Part shown: positions 8,151-19,411 of the stretch, piece after piece
Numbering within the stretch: position 1 is the stretch's first letter
Layout: every line of letters starts with the position of its first letter
Virus record (IMG/VR): IMGVR_UViG_3300028925_009492
Coordinates: 1 to 27,738 of that record
DNA length: 27,738 bases
Origin: a virus
Reading direction: 5' to 3' (one strand)
Translations under genes and position numbers: made by a program
Notes under the pieces: model-generated
Seen by the model: the letters and a program-made list of their open reading frames with translations, nothing else
Databases searched by the model: none
What the model was told of the DNA's origin: nothing

Positions 8151-8399
8151 TTAGCTACCTAAGAGTTTTTTGCTTGTGTTCCGTCCCTCAGACTCACCGA
8201 GTCCGCCGGTGCCGGTGCTTGTGGAAGCGGCGCGGCCTTGTGTACTGGCTTTGCGTTTGAGGCGTTTCTCTATTCCACCCAGCAGGGAGACCGCAGGGTC
8301 AGCTACTGCTACAGGAGCTGCTGCTACAGGAGCTGCTGCTACAGGAGTTGCCTGTTGTCTAGGTGCTGTTTCGAAGATCCGCGAGATATAGTTGCCCAT
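8151..8399 (-). CDS. Short tandem paralogue 3 (MG...LLGS family), unknown function
   Basis: This 82-residue protein starts MGNYISR. It has a low-complexity segment of APVAA repeats, a basic patch (EKRLKRKASTQGRAAST), then STGTGGLGES and a C-terminal KKLLGS. The basic patch, Gly turn and final LLG(S/K) are shared with the two genes upstream. Its stop is separated from the portal start by one base (TAACATG), and the LLGS codons provide AGGTAG as the portal's ribosome binding site. Similar short proteins are known beside podovirus portals; no function is established. Confidence 0.75.
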   Translation of the reverse strand: MGNYISRIFETAPRQQATPVAAAPVAAAPVAVADPAVSLLGGIEKRLKRKASTQGRAASTSTGTGGLGESEGRNTSKKLLGS

Positions 8400-8400
8400 G

Positions 8401-8595
8401 TTACTTACCTAATAGTTGTGTGGAGGAGTCCTCGGAGCCCAACAATGTGGAGGAGGTCTTGGCACGAGCCCGCGTCTTAGCGTTGCGGTCGCGTTTGTTG
8501 TCTACTGCTTTTACGGGGTCTGGCCGTGGGGGCTCAACTACGGTCTTGTTCTCGATCGGAGGTGGGGTCGCTGAAGCTGATGAACCAAATCCCAT
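8401..8595 (-). CDS. Short tandem paralogue 2 (MG...LLGK family), unknown function
   Basis: A 64-residue protein starting MGFGSSASATPPPIE, with a basic segment (DNKRDRNAKTRARAKT), then STLLGSEDSSTQLLGK. LLG occurs twice, once internally and once at the end. The junction to the next gene is again TAACATG, with the LLGK codons supplying TTAGGTAAG ahead of the ATG. The first residues MGFGS match the upstream paralogue, supporting local duplication. Confidence 0.72.
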   Translation of the reverse strand: MGFGSSASATPPPIENKTVVEPPRPDPVKAVDNKRDRNAKTRARAKTSSTLLGSEDSSTQLLGK

Positions 8596-8900: not shown

Positions 8901-10430
8901 TTATGAAAAAACATCGTAGTCCATATCTGTCGCAACCCTACCCCGCCGCCTTCTCATAGTCAAGTTATCTTTACGACTTACCGTCCTGCTGAACGTCGTC
9001 GCCAGCGCGTCTGCCCAATCAGGCGATGCGTAGCCCCGCTTCTTCATCTTGTCCTTAGGCTCCAGCTTGAGCTGCCCCTTGAGGCTGTACTCATACATCG
9101 GCGCACACAGGTCCTCAACCAAGTCCTTCTCGTTCGGCAGCGAGCCTGTCCCGATCCAGTCCCTCATCCGCCCCCACAGCTCCACACGGTGGTTAGCGTA
9201 CATCTCCTTGTCCTGAGCCCCGCCCCCAACCTTAACCTCTATAACCTTATACCCTGTTGCCTTCAACAGATCAGCCACACCGCCCCCAACGCCGTCACCC
9301 TCTATGAACACAGCATCAGGGTTGTAGCGATCTATTGCCCTAGCGCAGTGCTCAGCAAGCTCTACGATGGAGCACTTATCATAACCCTCAAACGCTATTG
9401 ACCTAGCATCTCTGCCCTGTCGGAAGGCCAGCACAGCCTTATCATTCCCGAACCTTGCAGGATCAACGCCCATTAGAAGAGGTGCGCCCGTGTCAGGGTG
9501 TAACTCTCTGTCCATAGCTATCTCTACGTCTCCCCTACCGATGAACTGGTAGTCGCCTTGGCGTGGGAACTGGCCGTATACCTCGACTCTAGCCTGATCG
9601 CTGTCTTCTCCATACTGCCGTATGATGTTGTTGTACAGCGTCTGGTCATTCTCCACGACTGTGCGCGCGTCAATGTTCTGACTGTTCCAAGCAGCACGGT
9701 TGCCGTGGAAGCACTCGAAGAACTCACCGCTAGGGTTACGTGGATTGCTGATGGCGATCCAGAACCTGTGCACTGTCTTGTCTGTGAAGTAGCCTTGCGT
9801 CACTGGCCATATACAAGATGCTATGCCGGATGCCTCGTCGAACAGCACAGCCATGCCGCGTTGGCTATGCACACCAGCGAATGCATCGGGGGACTCCTCG
9901 GACCACAGCCGCGCCTGTATGTACCAGTAGGCCGAGTCAAACTGCGTCGTCTTCTTGAGGCTGTCCACCAGCCAGTCAGCTGGACGCAGGGACATAGCGT
10001 TATGCTCGAACCAACGTGAGTTGATTGACATGGTTGCCCACTTGCGTATCTCAGGGAACGTGGTGGATTTGAGCTGCTGCTCGGTATTCGCGCTGACGAT
10101 GACCGTACTGGCCGGTATGGTACTGAACAGCCAGATGGCCACCCAAGCCAAGAACGCTGATTTACCTATGCCGCGCCCAGATGCGCGTGCCATCTGCATC
10201 AGCTCAGGGTCGATGTCGTTGGCGACCCTACTGCGGTTGGCAACAATATGGTCCCTTATCTCTGTAAGCGCCTGTATCTGCCATTCTCTGGGTTTATCGA
10301 AATTCTCAAGCGGGCCACCCGGTACGCCCCAAGGGAAGGCGAACATCACAAACGCCAACGGATCGTCGGCAAGCTCCAGTATCTTAAGGATAAGTTGTTG
10401 TTCTTGTGCAGCTGGTTGTACTTTCGGCAT
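8901..10430 (-). CDS. terL: Terminase large subunit
   Basis: 509 residues, the usual length for a TerL packaging motor. The ATPase domain shows Walker A GRGIGKS (about residue 84) and Walker B MAVLFDEAS (about residue 193). The C-terminal RNase H-like nuclease shows GVDPARFGNDKAV (first Asp), FIEGDGVGGGVADLL and SPDWADALA. All motif positions look intact, so packaging activity is expected. It uses the portal as docking site and the small subunit for DNA recognition. The ribosome binding site before the ATG is weak (A/T-rich with GAAAG). A 139-bp G/C-rich gap separates it from the gene upstream. Confidence 0.95.
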   Translation of the reverse strand: MPKVQPAAQEQQLILKILELADDPLAFVMFAFPWGVPGGPLENFDKPREWQIQALTEIRDHIVANRSRVANDIDPELMQMARASGRGIGKSAFLAWVAIWLFSTIPASTVIVSANTEQQLKSTTFPEIRKWATMSINSRWFEHNAMSLRPADWLVDSLKKTTQFDSAYWYIQARLWSEESPDAFAGVHSQRGMAVLFDEASGIASCIWPVTQGYFTDKTVHRFWIAISNPRNPSGEFFECFHGNRAAWNSQNIDARTVVENDQTLYNNIIRQYGEDSDQARVEVYGQFPRQGDYQFIGRGDVEIAMDRELHPDTGAPLLMGVDPARFGNDKAVLAFRQGRDARSIAFEGYDKCSIVELAEHCARAIDRYNPDAVFIEGDGVGGGVADLLKATGYKVIEVKVGGGAQDKEMYANHRVELWGRMRDWIGTGSLPNEKDLVEDLCAPMYEYSLKGQLKLEPKDKMKKRGYASPDWADALATTFSRTVSRKDNLTMRRRRGRVATDMDYDVFS

Positions 10431-10569
10431 AAAAAACTTTCAAAAAATATTTAAATAAACTGTCCGGGTCAGGTCCATATCCCATGCGCCAGCCTCAGGC
10501 CTCGGGGTACCCCCGTGCCACCCCCCCGGTCTAGGCTAAGTCATTGAAACCTAACACCCTTCCAGCTTT
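10431..10569. other. Intergenic region between small-terminase candidate and terL, with palindrome
   Basis: There is no gene here. It holds a 10-bp palindrome GGGGTACCCC (10504-10513), G/C-rich tracts on each side, one copy of the TAAGTCATTGA motif (10537-10547) and, touching it, CCTAACACCCT (10550-10560). Just outside the terminase pair, this is a plausible packaging or regulatory site; nothing proves it. Confidence 0.5.
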
Positions 10570-10950
10570 TCAGCCCAATACCTCAAATCCATCATCATCA
10601 TCAGGTTCAAGCGTTTCAGGTGTTAGGGTGTCTGGCTCAGCTACGTGTTCGATGATAGGTCCAAGCGTCTCAGGTGTTAGGGTGTTAGTGGTGATGTCCT
10701 TCAGCCTGTTGCTTGCTTGCTCTAGTGCCAAGCCAAGGTCGACCACATTCACGTTAGCTGTCACGTCGATCGCCGATGGCATTACCTTCGCAACTAGCTG
10801 GATAAAGAGTGGTAGGGTTTTAGGGTCGTCAGCGAGAGACGCGAGCCACCTGCCTCCACCTTTGTGCCTAAATGCCCACTCAACCTCCTCGCGAATAGAC
10901 TTCATATCCTTGCGGTGTTTGAGTGGTGGCGGTGCGCCTCTTCGTGCCAT
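10570..10950 (-). CDS. Terminase small subunit candidate
   Basis: A 126-residue protein beginning with a basic MARRGAPPPLKHRKD segment, then helical REEVEWAFRHKGGGRWLAS and FIQLVAKVMPSAIDV, and ending in an acidic tail. The tail contains a duplicated TLTPETL-(G/E)-P element, encoded by copies of a sequence containing GGTGTTAGGG, and a run of Asp. It is the first gene of the late operon and lies directly upstream of terL, the standard place for the DNA-recognition subunit. The family is not recognised from motif alone, so the role rests on position. Confidence 0.6.
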   Translation of the reverse strand: MARRGAPPPLKHRKDMKSIREEVEWAFRHKGGGRWLASLADDPKTLPLFIQLVAKVMPSAIDVTANVNVVDLGLALEQASNRLKDITTNTLTPETLGPIIEHVAEPDTLTPETLEPDDDDGFEVLG

Positions 10951-11182: not shown

Positions 11183-11347
11183 TTTCCGCCATTGTGCTCA
11201 CTGAGTGGCTTAAAACCGCGATCAATAAAGTGTGTAAGTCATTGATATCCCTGCACAAAATAGGCGTTTTACAACTTCCCAAGAGACTGAATGTGCCCCA
11301 AATCCAGCGTTTCAGCACACCGACATCGGCAGTTTTCCGCCATTGTG
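11183..11347 (+). repeat. Direct repeat pair TTTCCGCCATTGTG
   Basis: The 14-bp sequence occurs at 11183-11196 and 11334-11347, 151 bp apart, both in the same orientation inside the divergent control region. Placed upstream of the candidate early promoter, the pair could be a regulator binding site that loops DNA. The exact match is directly seen; the role is inferred. Confidence 0.6.
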
Positions 11348-14782: not shown

Positions 14783-14952
14783 GCGACCACACAAAAGCCT
14801 TTTGGTTGGGTTTCCTGTGCGTGCTAGGGTTCGTGTTCGTCCTTATCGGGCTCATATACGTGGTGCCGGGGTTGCTTCCCGCTAGTTGGGCCATCCCTGA
14901 CCCCGTGTATGACACACACTGGACGATCGGTTTACCCGGACAAATCAACTAA
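14779..14952 (+). CDS. 57-residue membrane protein with exported-like tail
   Basis: The start at 14779 overlaps the previous stop. MSDHTKAFWLGFLCVLGFVF leads into one long hydrophobic segment (residues about 8-34), then a polar, Pro-rich tail of about 25 residues. A longer frame from 14722 is rejected because it lacks coupling. Function unknown. Confidence 0.62.
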   Translation: MSDHTKAFWLGFLCVLGFVFVLIGLIYVVPGLLPASWAIPDPVYDTHWTIGLPGQIN

Positions 14953-14963
14953 TGGAGTAGAAA

Positions 14964-15353
14964 ATGATTGGACTAGAGATAAGTGACTTTGATAAGATAC
15001 CGCTTTTTCACTTTGTGGACGTCGCTCGCGAGATAGGGTTGGCGGCAAGTTACGACGATCGAGACGCTGATGAGGGTATCATGGACGTAGCCGTAGAGAA
15101 CTGGGTTACATTAGATGATACGATGACCTCGTTCCGCGTGTTCAAGCTGGGTCAGAAATGGGAACGGGGTGCAGAACAACGCTGGATTTTCCAATTGTAC
15201 ATTGCGGACGCCGAGGGTGATAACCTCACCGATCGCGGTTGCGTTTGGGGAAGCAGTAACATGGAAGGGTTGACCCTAGCTGTTCAGGAAGTGGACAACA
15301 GGTTTACCGGAATGACATACACATTAGAGGAAGCAGTAAATGCGAGAGTTTAG
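14964..15353 (+). CDS. Early protein of unknown function
   Basis: 129 residues, acidic, with MIGLEISDFDKIPLFHFVDV at the start and a Trp-containing centre (QRWIFQLYIAD). GGAG lies 7 nt before the ATG. Its last 14 nt overlap the HTH gene that follows. No motif identified. Confidence 0.7.
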   Translation: MIGLEISDFDKIPLFHFVDVAREIGLAASYDDRDADEGIMDVAVENWVTLDDTMTSFRVFKLGQKWERGAEQRWIFQLYIADAEGDNLTDRGCVWGSSNMEGLTLAVQEVDNRFTGMTYTLEEAVNARV

Positions 15354-15579
15354 AAAAAGACATAAATTAACACAAAAAAAGTTGGCGCGGTTGCTTCATA
15401 TGAGCGAAATTGGTGTTCGCGTCTCTGAAAAAAGAGGCACAATTCCAAAACCGATGAGACTTTTGTTAGTCGTGCTGACACCGACGCTGGATAAACTAGG
15501 GTTCGAAAAGACCAAAAATCTGCTCGATAGCGCAATAATAGAACAAAAAAGCTCTGTAACCCGCAGAAAACTGCGGTGA
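15340..15579 (+). CDS. Small Xre/Cro-like helix-turn-helix DNA-binding protein
   Basis: 79 residues. REFRKRHKLTQKKLARLLHM (residues 2-21) followed by SEIGVRVSEKRG gives the HTH_3 pattern: Q12 starts helix 2, with the recognition helix in the second segment. The basic C-terminus extends it. It is the last gene before a repeat-rich non-coding region, so it may bind the repeats there or act as an early repressor. The TGA stop lies inside the first TGAGGGA repeat. Confidence is good for HTH, low for target. Confidence 0.8.
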   Translation: MREFRKRHKLTQKKLARLLHMSEIGVRVSEKRGTIPKPMRLLLVVLTPTLDKLGFEKTKNLLDSAIIEQKSSVTRRKLR

Positions 15580-15624
15580 GGGACAGAAAAAGGGTATCCC
15601 TCAGAGATTTCCTCTGTAACCCGC
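15552..15624 (+). repeat. Direct repeat CTCTGTAACCCGC (60-bp period)
   Basis: The 13-mer is at 15552-15564 and 15612-15624, exactly 60 bp apart. The first copy lies in the end of the HTH gene and is part of a CCGCAG-AAAA-CTGCGG hairpin (15561-15576). Confidence 0.7.
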
Positions 15625-15900
15625 TGTTTTCCTCGATTGTCCAGCTGAGGGACTGAGGGACGGCTCTATATCTTTTCCCTGAGATTACATATGTATAAAT
15701 AGCTGTACTACTCCATAGAAACCCTTATATTGTCACTCACGCACTCAGAGACGAAATACGGCGGAAATACAGGCGGTACAGAAGGACAAAATCGGTAGCT
15801 TTGAGGGACTGAGGGAAATTCACTTTTTACCCAACGATTTCAATGACTTATTTTGGGTGTTTTTGGACGATTGCACTCAGCTAATGATTTCAATGACTTA
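15577..15900 (+). repeat. Iteron-like cluster in 390-bp non-coding region; candidate replication origin
   Basis: No gene is seen between 15580 and 15970. TGAGGGA occurs at 15577, 15646, 15654, 15802 and 15810, with one inverted copy (TCCCTCA, 15597-15603). GATTTCAATGACTTA occurs at 15836-15850 and 15886-15900, exactly 50 bp apart. The segment about 15660-15740 is AT-rich. Repeats, an AT-rich stretch and location between an HTH gene and the replication genes fit an origin, but also a multi-site operator. No DnaA box was identified. Confidence 0.6.
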
Positions 15901-15970
15901 AAGAAAATGGATTTGTCAACCCCTAATTTACTAATTCGGGTAATTCTGCTCGATAAAACCGGAGAAAAAC

Positions 15971-16054
15971 ATGGACGAAGAATGTACGTGCAAATGCAAC
16001 GCAGAAGAATGCGAATGTGAAGAGTGCAGCTGCGAGAAATGCGGCTGTAAATAA
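15971..16054 (+). CDS. Metallothionein-like Cys-rich microprotein (27 residues)
   Basis: The ATG at 15971 follows GGAGAAAAAC, a good ribosome binding site. Nine of 27 residues are Cys, at positions 5, 7, 9, 14, 16, 19, 21, 24 and 26. The pattern is C-x-C-x-C-x4-C-x-C-x2-C-x-C-x2-C-x-C, spaced by Glu, Lys and Ser with no aromatics or aliphatics except one Ala. This is the composition and spacing of metallothioneins, which chelate Zn, Cd or Cu in thiolate clusters. It lies alone between the repeat region and a palindrome-flanked promoter. It is shorter than usual bacterial members, so it may bind only two to four ions. The coding call rests on the ribosome binding site and the Cys pattern. Confidence 0.72.
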   Translation: MDEECTCKCNAEECECEECSCEKCGCK

Positions 16055-16055
16055 A

Positions 16056-16114
16056 CCTAACACCCTAATAGCCCAACACCGTACAAGCGTATAATCGTAC
16101 AGATCGGTGTTGGG
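16056..16114 (+). promoter_or_regulatory. Operator-like palindrome around a -10 box
   Basis: CCCAACACCG (16072-16081) and CGGTGTTGGG (16105-16114) are perfect 10-bp inverted arms around a consensus TATAAT (16090-16095). A related CCTAACACC lies at 16056-16064, 16 bp before the first arm. There is no good -35, which fits an activator- or repressor-controlled promoter for the genes from 16133 on. The same half-site sequence recurs elsewhere in the window. The site could also form an RNA hairpin with a 23-nt loop, but there is no U-run, so it is not a terminator. Confidence 0.6.
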
Positions 16115-16132
16115 TGTACTTTGGAGAGTAAA

Positions 16133-16354
16133 ATGGATCGTAACTATTTATCATACGGCTCTGACCGTATCGACGACGCAGACTTACTTAAAATAGAGGC
16201 AGACTTAGACGACATGACGGCAATATGCCAAGAGCTGCAATTCTTGCGGCACAGTGACGATGAGTTACGCGAAGAGCTCGACGCGCTGCATAAAGAGGTG
16301 CAGCTCTTGTTTGATAGTTTGGAGGGAACGCTGTCGTTCAAGTTAGATGGCTGA
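16133..16354 (+). CDS. Acidic coiled-coil protein of unknown function
   Basis: 73 residues from ATG 16133 with GGAG 6 nt upstream. A TTG 12 nt upstream overlaps the ribosome binding site and is rejected. It is rich in Asp, Glu and Leu with heptad-like spacing over residues 17-65, so one or two long helices are likely. It is the first gene behind the palindromic promoter and overlaps the DUF3310 gene by 8 nt. Confidence 0.7.
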   Translation: MDRNYLSYGSDRIDDADLLKIEADLDDMTAICQELQFLRHSDDELREELDALHKEVQLLFDSLEGTLSFKLDG

Positions 16355-16691
16355 GTGCGAGTATTGCCATGGGAACCATTACTATCGGTTCCGTGACGAG
16401 ACGGTCCCTTGTGGCTACTGCGCGGGTAGTAGTACCTTCTCAGGTCAATACGACGACGGCTACAGTCCCGACGACGACGGCTACAGTCCCGACGACGACG
16501 TCAACCACCCTGAGCACTATAACTTGGGACAGGAGCCGTTCCCGTTCATTGAGAGCTGGGGCATGTCGTTTGCTGAGGGCTGCGTCATTAAGTACGTGGT
16601 GCGTCACAAGCATAAGGGCGGGCTAAAGGACCTAAAGAAGGCAGCGTGGTACTTGAACAAGCTGATTGAGAGCTATGATGACGAGACGTGA
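16347..16691 (+). CDS. DUF3310 protein with N-terminal zinc ribbon
   Basis: 114 residues. Residues 1-25 hold two CxxC pairs (C4, C7 and C22, C25), a zinc-ribbon pattern. Residues 38-51 are a duplicated GYSPDDD encoded by a 21-bp tandem repeat. From residue 52, VNHPEHYN, then FIESWGMSFAEGCVIKYVVR and LKDLKKAAWYLNKLIES match DUF3310, a common phage early family with no proven activity (it has been called nucleotide-kinase-like). The zinc ribbon joined by a repeat linker is the odd part. Confidence 0.85.
   Translation: MAECEYCHGNHYYRFRDETVPCGYCAGSSTFSGQYDDGYSPDDDGYSPDDDVNHPEHYNLGQEPFPFIESWGMSFAEGCVIKYVVRHKHKGGLKDLKKAAWYLNKLIESYDDET
16452..16499 (+). repeat. 21-bp tandem repeat in the DUF3310 gene
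   Basis: Two full copies (16452-16472 and 16473-16493) plus six matching bases. It encodes the acidic (GYSPDDD)2 linker. Such in-frame repeats can change copy number by slippage without breaking the frame. Confidence 0.85.
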
Positions 16692-16875
16692 GTTAAACGA
16701 CAACAACTGGCGGTTCACTGAGTCACTCATGAACGCCGCCGGAGAGGTCACATTCGAGAAGCCCCTCAAGGCTAAGCCCTTCGATCTGGAGGGTGGACGC
16801 TTTGAGGATCACCCGGACGCTGATCGCGATCGGATGCCCCTGATGGGGTATGTACATAGGAGTTCACTATTATGA
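16675..16875 (+). CDS. Small early protein of unknown function
   Basis: 66 residues from the first of two adjacent ATGs (16675 and 16678), overlapping the DUF3310 stop. It contains NNWRFTESLMNAAGEVTFE and an acidic EGGRFEDHPDADRD. No family recognised. Its stop overlaps the next start (ATGA at 16872). Confidence 0.65.
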   Translation: MMTRRELNDNNWRFTESLMNAAGEVTFEKPLKAKPFDLEGGRFEDHPDADRDRMPLMGYVHRSSLL

Positions 16876-17018
16876 TGGAGCTGTTGATCATAGGCGCGGG
16901 GGCGGTAGCAGCCTTCCTCGTGTATGAAGCAAATAGAGAAAGGAAACGCTATGAGCTGCAAAGAATGCGACGACAAAGGTTACGTAATGGACGAAGTAAC
17001 AACCGGCGGGACCGCTGA
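16872..17018 (+). CDS. Single-helix membrane protein with basic tail, overlapping the next gene
   Basis: ATG 16872 overlaps the previous TGA. The 48-residue frame begins MMELLIIGAGAVAAFLVYEA (one membrane helix), then has an Arg-rich tail (about 13 Arg in 28 residues). It overlaps the zinc-ribbon gene by 68 bp in another frame; that overlap encodes much of the Arg-rich tail. It may be real because of coupling and the clean helix, or the tail could be a by-product of the other frame. Confidence 0.5.
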   Translation: MMELLIIGAGAVAAFLVYEANRERKRYELQRMRRQRLRNGRSNNRRDR

Positions 17019-17121
17019 CGGGAGCCCGTGGCAGTCATACCGATCAAGGCGCGTGCCTTGTGAGGTGTGCGCTGAGTTCCAGTTCCACGACCCGGACGGT
17101 CTGAGTAAGTGGGTCCCATGA
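16951..17121 (+). CDS. Small zinc-ribbon protein (DnaJ-like CxxC pairs)
   Basis: 56 residues from ATG 16951 (AAGGAA upstream). MSCKECDDKGYV carries the first CxxC with a following Gly, and RRVPCEVCAEF carries the second. The pattern CxxC-x-x-x-G resembles DnaJ zinc-finger repeats. It is probably a small metal-stabilised nucleic-acid or protein binder. Its stop overlaps the next start (ATGA at 17118). Confidence 0.7.
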   Translation: MSCKECDDKGYVMDEVTTGGTADGSPWQSYRSRRVPCEVCAEFQFHDPDGLSKWVP

Positions 17122-17243
17122 AAAAGTCGAATATAATTGAAATAAAAATATTCTTAGCTGCTGGTGTACCTCAAACAGTGCTGGCAGAACTATTTAACAC
17201 CAGCAAAACAGCTATCAATAGAATAGCAGTAAGGATGAAATGA
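17118..17243 (+). CDS. 41-residue stand-alone helix-turn-helix protein
   Basis: IKIFLAAGVPQTVLAELFNT followed by SKTAINRIAVRMK gives a resolvase/Hin-type HTH (A-G-V-x-x-x-x-L-A-x-x-F-x-x-S-x-x-x-I-x-x-I) with nothing else. It is coupled by ATGA at both ends, directly upstream of the primase-helicase gene. A lone HTH of this size may be a DNA-site recognition subunit for the next protein or a small regulator. Both are inference. Confidence 0.62.
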   Translation: MKKSNIIEIKIFLAAGVPQTVLAELFNTSKTAINRIAVRMK

Positions 17244-19411
17244 TCGACCATACAGAGTTCCTATCGACATTGTTTCCAACCCTAACACCCTCAGAGCATG
17301 TCAGCGTCACCGAGATACCCAAAGGGGGTTTCATAACGGACGCGCTGGCTACGGGTAAGGATTTCTCATCTTGGGACCCTGAAACCCCAAGAGCCATGTA
17401 CTTCTGCGTGTCGACGACGAACGGTAAGAGCCGGACCCGTGACAATCTGGTACGGTCTCACGTCCTGATGTTGGACGACATAGGCGACAAGACAGCAGAG
17501 CCGGGGGTAGAGCCGACTTATAAGCTCGAGACGTCCCCCGGCTCTTTCCACTGGGGCTACAACCTAGTTCCTACAGCTGACGTCACAAGGTTCGAGGCGT
17601 TGGTGGAGATAATCACGAAGGACTTAGGCTTCGGGGACAAGGGTGCCGGCGGTTCGTACCGTCTCGCACGTTTGCCGGGAAGCACCAACGTCAAGGATGG
17701 CAAGAACAACTTCAAATCAGTCATAACAGACTGGCACCCTGACAGGGTGTGGGAGTTGGACGAGTTAGCCTCTGAGTTTGGCGTGGACCTGAATAACGTC
17801 AAGACGAAACGCAAGCCAGTGTCTCGCGTAGAGACTAAGGACAACATCGACCCCTTGCTCGACTGGCTGAGCGCAGACAATCGCGTCATCTCAGACGGCG
17901 GTGAGTGGGTTGAGGTGGCGTGCCCTTGGGCATCGACGCACACTGACGGCAGTACGGCAGCAGGGTATAGCCCGCTAGGCCGAGGTGCCGAGGGTAACGT
18001 CGACAGCCGGGGGTTCAATTGCTTCCATGAGCACTGTAAGACGAAGAACATAGGCGATTACATCACTTGGGCCAAAAGTGTGGGCGGTCCTGACGTGACG
18101 GGCTACGATCCACTGCCATGGTTGCAGGAACGCTACGCATATCTTGGGATGGACGAGAAAGTGGTTGACTTACACCAGCGTAAACTCGGTGGAAGCGATT
18201 GGTTGTGGGATTTGAGGGCTTGGGGGCGGCGTCATCCCGGATATATAGAGAAAATCCGGGTTGCGGACGCCTTTGTGGCCTCTCATGACACAAAACACGC
18301 CGATTTCATGTCATATGTGCCCGTGAAACGTGAAGAAGACACAGGAATGGTGAAAGTATACAGTCAAACGGCAGTAAATGTGTACGTCCCGCCAAATTGG
18401 GACGAAATCGACGACCTTCCTGAGGTTTTCATCGAACATATGGAATACCTGATACCTGACACCCTAGAACGCGAGCTCTTTGTAGATTGGTTGGCTTATA
18501 AATTCCAAAATCCTGACCGGCGGTCGTATGCCATGCTAATGGTGGCCGATCGGGCGTTTGGTATAGGCCGATCGTGGATTAAAACGATGTTAGCTGCTAC
18601 GTTACAGTCGTCAGTCAACACAGCGACCTTAGGACAGCTAATCGGGCGTGGTACGTCCGCTGAGCAGTCCTATAATGACTGGCAATCCAGAACGCAGTTC
18701 ATTTGCATAGAGGAAGCAAGGGAAAGTACCGACAAAGACGTGTTCTACCAAGCATATGAGACGTTCAAGACTAACGTCGACCCTGCTGTGGGCGTTGGAA
18801 TACGTATTAACCCGAAATATGGCAAAACTAGGACCGAGAATATCTACTATAACGCCCTGATTTTCTCAAATCATAAGGACGCCATAGCAATACCGGCAAA
18901 TGATCGTAGAATATGCGTAATTAAGAACCCTACGACCATGGAGAGCTCGAGCTACTACGAAAGATTGGCTCGATCGATCACGTCCGGCGAGCCCCAACGC
19001 ATCTACTGGTATTTAATGCGCCGGGATGTGTCGGGTTTCGACAATATCATTCCCCCGATGACACCGGGTAAGCAAGACATGATATCCGCTAACGTCATGC
19101 CATCCGATGAAATCTGGAGTTTGATCGAAAATCAGCTGCCTGATCTGGTAACTAAGATCACCCTACAGGACGCCGTGGTGAGTGGTGCCGCCCAATTACG
19201 CATGGACGGCATAGCAAACAAGCCTCGGGCTGTGGCGGCTGCTCTATGGGCCGATATACCCCCATTGAGGGACGAGAAGAACGGCGCTCGATACCGTGTC
19301 GGGCCATCTAACTCGCAAGCTGAGCTTAAGGCGGTGAGAAACGTCGAAGAGTGGACGAAAAAGGACGACGAGAGAAGTAGAGAAGTAATGGTTGTGGGCA
19401 TGTCCCGTTAG
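17240..19411 (+). CDS. Primase-helicase fusion (AEP-like primase plus DUF5906-type helicase)
   Basis: 723 residues. N-terminal AEP-like part: LMLDDIGDK (DD at 79-80), SPGSFHWGYNL (99-109; active-site His) and GGSYRLARLPGSTN (137-150) fit archaeo-eukaryotic primase motifs. A zinc-binding insert follows (C228, C261, H263, C266). The C-terminal third is a superfamily 3-type helicase: a P-loop-like AFGIGRSW at 439-446 with Arg444 where Lys is usual, acidic FICIEEA (487-493), and FSNHKDAI...RR (542-557) as sensor/Arg-finger region. It would make primers and unwind the fork. The K-to-R change may reduce or alter ATPase activity; similar degenerate loops occur in phage relatives. Confidence 0.82.
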   Translation: MIDHTEFLSTLFPTLTPSEHVSVTEIPKGGFITDALATGKDFSSWDPETPRAMYFCVSTTNGKSRTRDNLVRSHVLMLDDIGDKTAEPGVEPTYKLETSPGSFHWGYNLVPTADVTRFEALVEIITKDLGFGDKGAGGSYRLARLPGSTNVKDGKNNFKSVITDWHPDRVWELDELASEFGVDLNNVKTKRKPVSRVETKDNIDPLLDWLSADNRVISDGGEWVEVACPWASTHTDGSTAAGYSPLGRGAEGNVDSRGFNCFHEHCKTKNIGDYITWAKSVGGPDVTGYDPLPWLQERYAYLGMDEKVVDLHQRKLGGSDWLWDLRAWGRRHPGYIEKIRVADAFVASHDTKHADFMSYVPVKREEDTGMVKVYSQTAVNVYVPPNWDEIDDLPEVFIEHMEYLIPDTLERELFVDWLAYKFQNPDRRSYAMLMVADRAFGIGRSWIKTMLAATLQSSVNTATLGQLIGRGTSAEQSYNDWQSRTQFICIEEARESTDKDVFYQAYETFKTNVDPAVGVGIRINPKYGKTRTENIYYNALIFSNHKDAIAIPANDRRICVIKNPTTMESSSYYERLARSITSGEPQRIYWYLMRRDVSGFDNIIPPMTPGKQDMISANVMPSDEIWSLIENQLPDLVTKITLQDAVVSGAAQLRMDGIANKPRAVAAALWADIPPLRDEKNGARYRVGPSNSQAELKAVRNVEEWTKKDDERSREVMVVGMSR

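Follow-up and report, generated by a model that had tools for sequence, protein, structure and literature searches.

Introduction

Plasmid-type iteron origins that contain IHF sites, such as that of pSC101, have as initiator a winged-helix protein of the RepA type. For environmental phages with a primase-helicase of their own, we know of no general way to locate the origin. In RSF1010 oriV, the iterons belong to RepC, the helicase is RepA, and the primase, RepB′, starts at the ssiA and ssiB hairpins (PMC4234260, PMC4434180). In pRN1, the origin is a stem-loop that begins 54 bp past the end of the PrimPol-helicase gene and suffices besides the replication operon; similar stem-loops have been proposed for phages such as BIP-1 (PMC4234260). 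For the NrS-1 polymerase, two 8-nt recognition sequences and a possible origin are reported, and in the sections of that report available to us neither iterons nor an IHF box is described (PMC7102993). Finally, the promoter hairpins of phage N4 extrude from supercoiled DNA by virtue of a loop rule (PMC4496689) that is found again below.

Here, we analyse a linear virus record, 27,738 bases long (the window, that is, the whole stretch of DNA studied), in which the element at 15552–15900 is probably an iteron origin that includes two IHF-like sites, predicted from the sequence to be used by the phage's own primase-helicase; we favour this reading without regarding it as secure. A preliminary description had already proposed a candidate origin at this place, which is still the best reading and has gained comparative evidence, while the helical phasing of the repeats finds no support, nor does a tie between them and the HTH protein, and GATTTCAATGACTTA is more easily read as a bending site of IHF type than as an iteron.

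The locus resembles each of the systems above in part. With pSC101-type origins it shares short repeats, an AT-rich stretch, IHF-like sites and a nearby replication gene; unlike them, it has a primase-helicase as its proposed initiator instead of a RepA-type protein, and the boxes of its family are often paired. The RepB-type primase domain (PF16793) and the iterons recall RSF1010, and hairpins accompany some relatives of the element, whereas in the window primase and helicase are fused in one protein and no C[GNA]G or C[TTTA]G hairpin is present. As in pRN1, the predicted origin is beside a primase-helicase gene, and an inverted repeat behind the primase of a related locus (L034) is comparable to the pRN1 stem-loop, but the window element is rich in iterons and lies upstream (5′) of the gene rather than as a stem-loop at its 3′ side. 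The helicase region of the NrS-1 polymerase is related to that of the window protein. The C[GNA]G loop rule of the promoters of the N4 virion RNA polymerase (PMC4496689), restricted to one strand, is common to some relatives of the element; in these, by contrast, the hairpin adjoins iterons and box, and no link to a virion RNA polymerase was seen.

The Repeats of the Element and Their Gene Context

Three kinds of repeat make up the element: six TGAGGGA iterons (15577–15816), two copies of CTCTGTAACCCGC and two 18-bp copies of AAYGATTTCAATGACTTA (15833 and 15883). They had been noticed by inspection, and the analysis confirmed that they are real and beyond chance. Five iterons are direct and one is inverted, namely those at 15577–15583 (+) and 15597–15603 (–), a pair starting at 15646 and 15654 (TGAGGGACTGAGGGA, 15646–15660, +) and a second pair starting at 15802 and 15810 (again TGAGGGACTGAGGGA, 15802–15816, +). 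The repeat search placed the CTCTGTAACCCGC copies at 15552–15564 and 15612–15624, both on the + strand and 60 bp apart. The two copies of GATTTCAATGACTTA, 50 bp apart at 15836 and 15886, sit within the 18-mer, whose copies are identical at 17 of 18 positions and which, from the repeat and from the box family described below, are annotated as IHF-like box 1 (AACGATTTCAATGACTTA, 15833–15850, +) and box 2 (AATGATTTCAATGACTTA, 15883–15900, +). Among 1000 dinucleotide shuffles of 15340–16132, none gave an exact direct repeat of at least 15 at a distance of up to 100 bp, two repeats of at least 13, or a 7-mer present six times in 250 bp, and a 7-mer present six times in 370 bp was found in 0 of 577 windows from elsewhere in the record. 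Furthermore, TGAGGGA occurs 11 times in the whole window, the mean in shuffled sequences being 2.9, and 11 or more occurrences were reached in 0 of 100 shuffles.

The AT-rich stretch of the preliminary description was recovered as a putative unwinding element at 15664–15745, where the element is at its least stable; the duplex instability of this stretch reaches the 99.96th percentile and ranks fourth among the non-overlapping 80-bp windows of the record. The spacings of 50 and 60 bp had been regarded as near multiples of the helical repeat; with 10.5 bp to the turn they correspond to 4.8 and 5.7 turns, and box pairs in 44 other stretches are spaced by 51–74 bp (scan range 45–75), so that phasing is not convincing.

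The region had also been considered gene-free, which holds only from 15580 on, because the ORF of a small HTH protein (15340–15579, +, 79 aa) contains the first CTCTGTAACCCGC copy; this ORF extends into the left end of the element, and its stop codon TGA forms the start of the first TGAGGGA. The assignment of this ORF to HTH_3 in Pfam (E 0.0018, 18.7 bits) is under the cut-off of 23. Downstream lies, at 17240–19411 (+), the proposed user of the origin, a primase-helicase with RepB_primase and DUF5906 domains, both above the Pfam cut-off (PF16793, E 1.6e-6, 28.6 bits, cut-off 24.3; PF19263, E 2e-6). A family A DNA polymerase, a DUF2800/PD-(D/E)XK protein and a SNF2-type helicase are also encoded downstream of the HTH ORF; the large terminase is encoded at 8901–10430 on the opposite strand. 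A profile of the window primase and three relatives matches the C-terminal region of the NrS-1 polymerase (6k9c, E 8.3e-5), and a structure prediction from four sequences, with a mean pLDDT of only 30, was set aside. Three features expected of an iteron origin are present, namely short repeats beyond chance, an AT-rich stretch and, 1.3 kb downstream, a gene that may encode the initiator. The tRNA search of the window found none, a DNA search of phages with 15300–16400 gave no match, and the window polymerase, used as query against viral contigs, retrieved no relative.

An IHF-like Box Recurring in Other Viruses

IHF binds the consensus WATCAANNNNTTR (PMC4585315), from which both window boxes differ by one base, a T in place of A; the same single-base difference from the consensus is seen in the looser pattern TTTCAATGACTTA. 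Near sites with one to four mismatches at no more than 250 bp from a box, 24 in number with a few from one locus, were collected from one representative per sequence group (76 groups of 129 loci), as in the later analyses. Position 7 is changed in six of these sites, always from T to A, and all six are perfect matches to WATCAANNNNTTR; elsewhere the changes number 3–6 at the four N positions, 0–2 in TCAA and 1–3 in TTA. The excess of second sites near boxes is partly circular, since the 44 viral loci were picked for having two boxes. A feature that speaks against plain IHF is the conservation of the outer bases of the box and of its N4 part beyond what IHF binding needs. The AAYGATTTCAATGACTTA boxes are probably not iterons, because AATGWTTTCAATGACTTA recurs widely and its variants fit WATCAANNNNTTR; of the repeats previously taken as possible iterons, the TGAGGGA units keep that role and the GATTTCAATGACTTA copies are better read as IHF-like bending sites.

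As a single box, AATGWTTTCAATGACTTA was found in at least 120 viral stretches, compared with 13 for the reversed-pattern control. Two GATTTCAATGACTTA copies at 40–65 bp occur in seven viral stretches, none of which has a protein match to the window ORFs, and paired TTTCAATGACTTA boxes in 44 viral stretches vs. five in 257 Gb of bacterial and archaeal genomes. Among 289 genomes of the class of Chelatococcus caeni (G001, the genome behind locus L085), the box is present in four, C. caeni included, and the reversed control in none. The repeats near paired boxes vary by lineage (ACTTCCGCA, TGGAACATT, GTGGTACAA, CCTGTACGGTAG and others). When the flanks were tested for an over-repeated 7-mer, in a stretch set by hand for the window (15551–15920) and extending from –150 to +210 from the box in the other groups, p was ≤0.05 in 17 of 25 sequence groups, window included, and ≤0.005 in 12; the test failed in the remaining eight, three of the five annotated phages among them. 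The single boxes of L156, L147 and L120 lie next to what appear by eye to be tRNA ends, and these are perhaps attachment sites.

The string TGAGGGACTGAGGGA alone was tried as a lead and rejected, as it retrieved 31 viral stretches with 0 matching the primase, HTH protein or polymerase of the window. Tandem arrays of TGAGGGA type, with 8- or 15-bp spacing, were noted in L016, L030 and L031, again with no match to these three proteins.

A full-text search retrieved no paper with the 15-mer string of the box, and its 11-mers led to no phage paper, judging by titles. Searches on iterons, IHF and primase origins gave, among the matches listed, no description of such a family; this silence is weak evidence of absence, because subscription papers are mostly outside the literature searched.

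Position of the Box Beside Primase-Helicase Genes

In the 76 sequence groups, 14 of 24 primase-helicase genes have their 3′ end within 200 bp of a box, vs. four of 231 other ORFs of at least 300 aa, a count that is partly circular because the primase reference set, built from single-linkage clusters, came from the first scan. The 80 listed loci of the single-box scan included 74 new ones, which were analysed first, and 36 more (L169–L204) were reserved as a held-out set, reduced to 20 independent loci after removal of alike ones. A count of the same type on the new listed loci of that scan only gave 8/15 and, in the held-out loci, a primase-helicase 3′ end lies within 200 bp of the box in four of five cases, vs. 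two of 34 other ORFs. None of the 13 reversed-pattern control loci has a primase-helicase match, in a search in which three positive controls were found. In the first set the primase-helicase family, defined as a single-linkage cluster, is present on 21 loci, window included. Its builds differ: according to Pfam, ten members or their annotated counterparts combine Toprim or PrimPol with AAA_25, DUF3987, DUF5906 or VapE, some of these domains being under the cut-off.

The box is not confined to such surroundings. A terminase-large-subunit family, one member of which was confirmed, replaces or accompanies the primase in 16 loci of the first set, and 52 of the 76 groups, many of them on short contigs, have no primase-helicase match. 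Among five annotated phages, RcGingersnap, R3 and N65 have the box 0.06–1.1 kb from the primase and 8.8–20.7 kb from the terminase; in RcHartney an HTH gene and a small gene flank it, with an NrS-1-like protein 3.5 kb away, and in the T7-like TRX32-1 it is 1.3 kb past TerL, the primase being far off. A strict rule that places the box by the primase is disfavoured by TRX32-1, by the 16 terminase loci and by the 52 groups without a primase. The window itself is atypical, its element being 1.3 kb upstream of the primase gene and not, as usual, just behind it. Sites matching WWTCAANNNNTTR number two in R3, both in the element; three in N65, two of them in the element; one in the 50 kb of RcGingersnap that were read, in the element; seven in RcHartney, three in the element; and seven in TRX32-1, one in the element.

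GC skew, which had been suggested as a check, tracks gene direction in the window and leaves the site unmarked. In the five annotated phages (RcGingersnap computed on 50 of 68 kb) the nearest extreme is 3.2–10.7 kb from the box, except in TRX32-1, in which it is 1.25 kb away; with no consistent turning point by the box, skew was rejected as an origin marker.

Relatives of the Window Primase

Four relatives of the window primase were found at first and 14, these four included, by means of a profile. The nearest, L034 and L036, are 46% identical in the alignment (L035 resembles L034), and both have ten TAGGGAA repeats, the two strands taken together, in a stretch that begins some 90 bp ahead of the primase stop and extends some 200 bp past it. 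Just behind this stop, amid the iterons, lies TTTCAACGACTTG, and neither locus has any other TTTCAANNNNTTR site; in L034, this IHF-like sequence is surrounded by an imperfect inverted repeat of 23 nt. Iterons and an IHF-like site are common to both arrangements, since the window has TGAGGGA with TTTCAATGACTTA and L034/L036 have TAGGGAA with TTTCAACGACTTG, and the iterons share the core AGGGA. The order differs, the element preceding the primase by 1.3 kb in the window and being located at the primase stop in L034/L036.

The combination of box and iterons is absent from ten more distant relatives (27–33%), and a simple vertical story is therefore disfavoured. Two further sequences add nothing to this comparison, as the sequence of L228 (42% identical) stops within the gene and is uninformative, and L226 was omitted as a near copy of L225. 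In L231, five AAGATAA copies start 60 bp behind the end of the primase match. A contig with a distant primase relative, L238, shows at 8185–8544 about 16 units of ATTTTAC/CGTAAAA type, mostly at 15-bp spacing.

Mini-Hairpins Beside Some Boxes

In L038, L041, L063, L066 and other loci, short palindromes with a GNA or TTTA loop start 39–55 bp to the left of the leftmost box. On 114 distinct flanks, which are not independent lineages, such loops occur in 14 of 38 hairpins, vs. 26 of 1744 in the remainder of the contigs concerned (Fisher p 4.5e-15). All 14 are on the strand that reads AATGATTTCAATGACTTA, with 0/38 on the opposite one, and a C-G pair closes 12 of them. In the held-out loci, one of nine hairpins has a GNA or TTTA loop, closed by T-A and not C-G, so that the mini-hairpin is confined to part of the family at most. 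Within 15300–16250 of the window, none of the hairpins with a stem of at least 5 has a GNA or TTTA loop, and the only stem-6 hairpin inside the element, detected by the hairpin search at 15561–15576 (+), is CCGCAG[AAAA]CTGCGG.

A Candidate Origin and the Alternatives

Computation has established the repeats, the unstable stretch, the domains of the primase-helicase, the recurrence of box and iterons and the adjacency of box and primase elsewhere. If the element is an origin, the TGAGGGAC iterons would be bound by the primase-helicase of 17240–19411 or by a small partner, for instance the HTH protein, and host IHF or a similar protein would bind the two AATGATTTCAATGACTTA boxes and bend the DNA. 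The AT-rich stretch between the iteron pairs, 15664–15745, might then open, allowing the helicase part to load and the primase part to begin the first strand.

The main rival is a regulatory one, in which the HTH protein or another regulator, bound to TGAGGGA or CTCTGTAACCCGC and helped by IHF, would control the early operon from the gene at 16133. We consider such an operator or promoter unlikely, although the HTH gene overlaps the element, RcHartney likewise has an HTH gene just before the box, and 7-bp units in direct and inverted orientation fit a repressor. In other phages the box accompanies the 3′ ends of primase-helicase genes that differ in build, the L034/L036 iterons are at and behind the primase stop, and promoters, of sigma-70-like type only, are not in excess in 14900–17300 (three vs. 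2.9 expected). It is far less probable, if still conceivable, that the element is a packaging site. Lambda cosB consists of an IHF site and boxes for the small terminase, an architecture like that of the element; the box is near terminase genes in some lineages, and the window boxes at 10537 and 11235 flank ORF 10570–10950, which is a small terminase by position only. The element, however, is about 4.6 kb from that ORF, whereas cosB adjoins the small terminase, and in RcGingersnap, R3 and N65 the distances to the terminase given above (8.8–20.7 kb) leave the box beside the primase.

That the element is a functionless simple TGAGGGAC microsatellite appears highly improbable: several of the 31 viral stretches with TGAGGGACTGAGGGA, none of which matches the window's primase, HTH protein or polymerase, are plain tandem arrays, but the units of the window are dispersed, one is inverted, they are combined with a conserved box, and they are matched by the AGGGA iterons of the primase relatives. 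Least probable of all, to the point of being very hard to credit, are the arms of an attachment site, in which IHF sites would accompany integrase arm sites. IHF sites are normal in attP and the single boxes of L156 and L147 adjoin, by eye, tRNA-like ends, but box and integrase are about 21 kb apart in N65 and about 18 kb apart in RcGingersnap, and the window is without a tRNA.

Extending the origin reading from this element to its family, we tentatively suggest, as a doubtful proposal, a widespread and undescribed phage origin module. It would consist of a near-invariant 18-bp bending box, often paired, of lineage-specific iterons and, in some lineages, of a strand-specific, very stable mini-hairpin (C[GNA]G or C[TTTA]G) as primase start, and it would be used by primase-helicases of at least five builds; the reader of the box may be more specific than ordinary IHF. 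Our confidence in this module, low to begin with, was lowered slightly further because the held-out loci did not confirm the hairpin result. If the mini-hairpin is the start site of the primase, the firing of the origin would be tied to the loop chemistry of N4 promoters. The box would serve as a search handle, predicting iteron and replication start phage by phage, and, as several of the predicted elements are carried by cultured phages of Rhodobacter, Paracoccus and Rhizobium, the prediction is directly testable.

Further Features of the Window

Between the element and the gene at 16133, a possible Cys-rich ORF of 27 aa (15971–16054, +; MDEECTCKCNAEECECEECSCEKCGCK) is metallothionein-like by eye, with no match in a tblastn search of phages. 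Two further IHF-like sites lie on the – strand, at 10537–10549 (TTTCAATGACTTA) and at 11235–11247 (TATCAATGACTTA, a perfect IHF consensus); they are possibly packaging or promoter sites, and the ORF between them, 10570–10950, has no PHROGs match. At 16072–16114, directly before the gene at 16133, a perfect 10-bp inverted repeat (CCCAACACCG/CGGTGTTGGG) flanks a TATAAT stretch.
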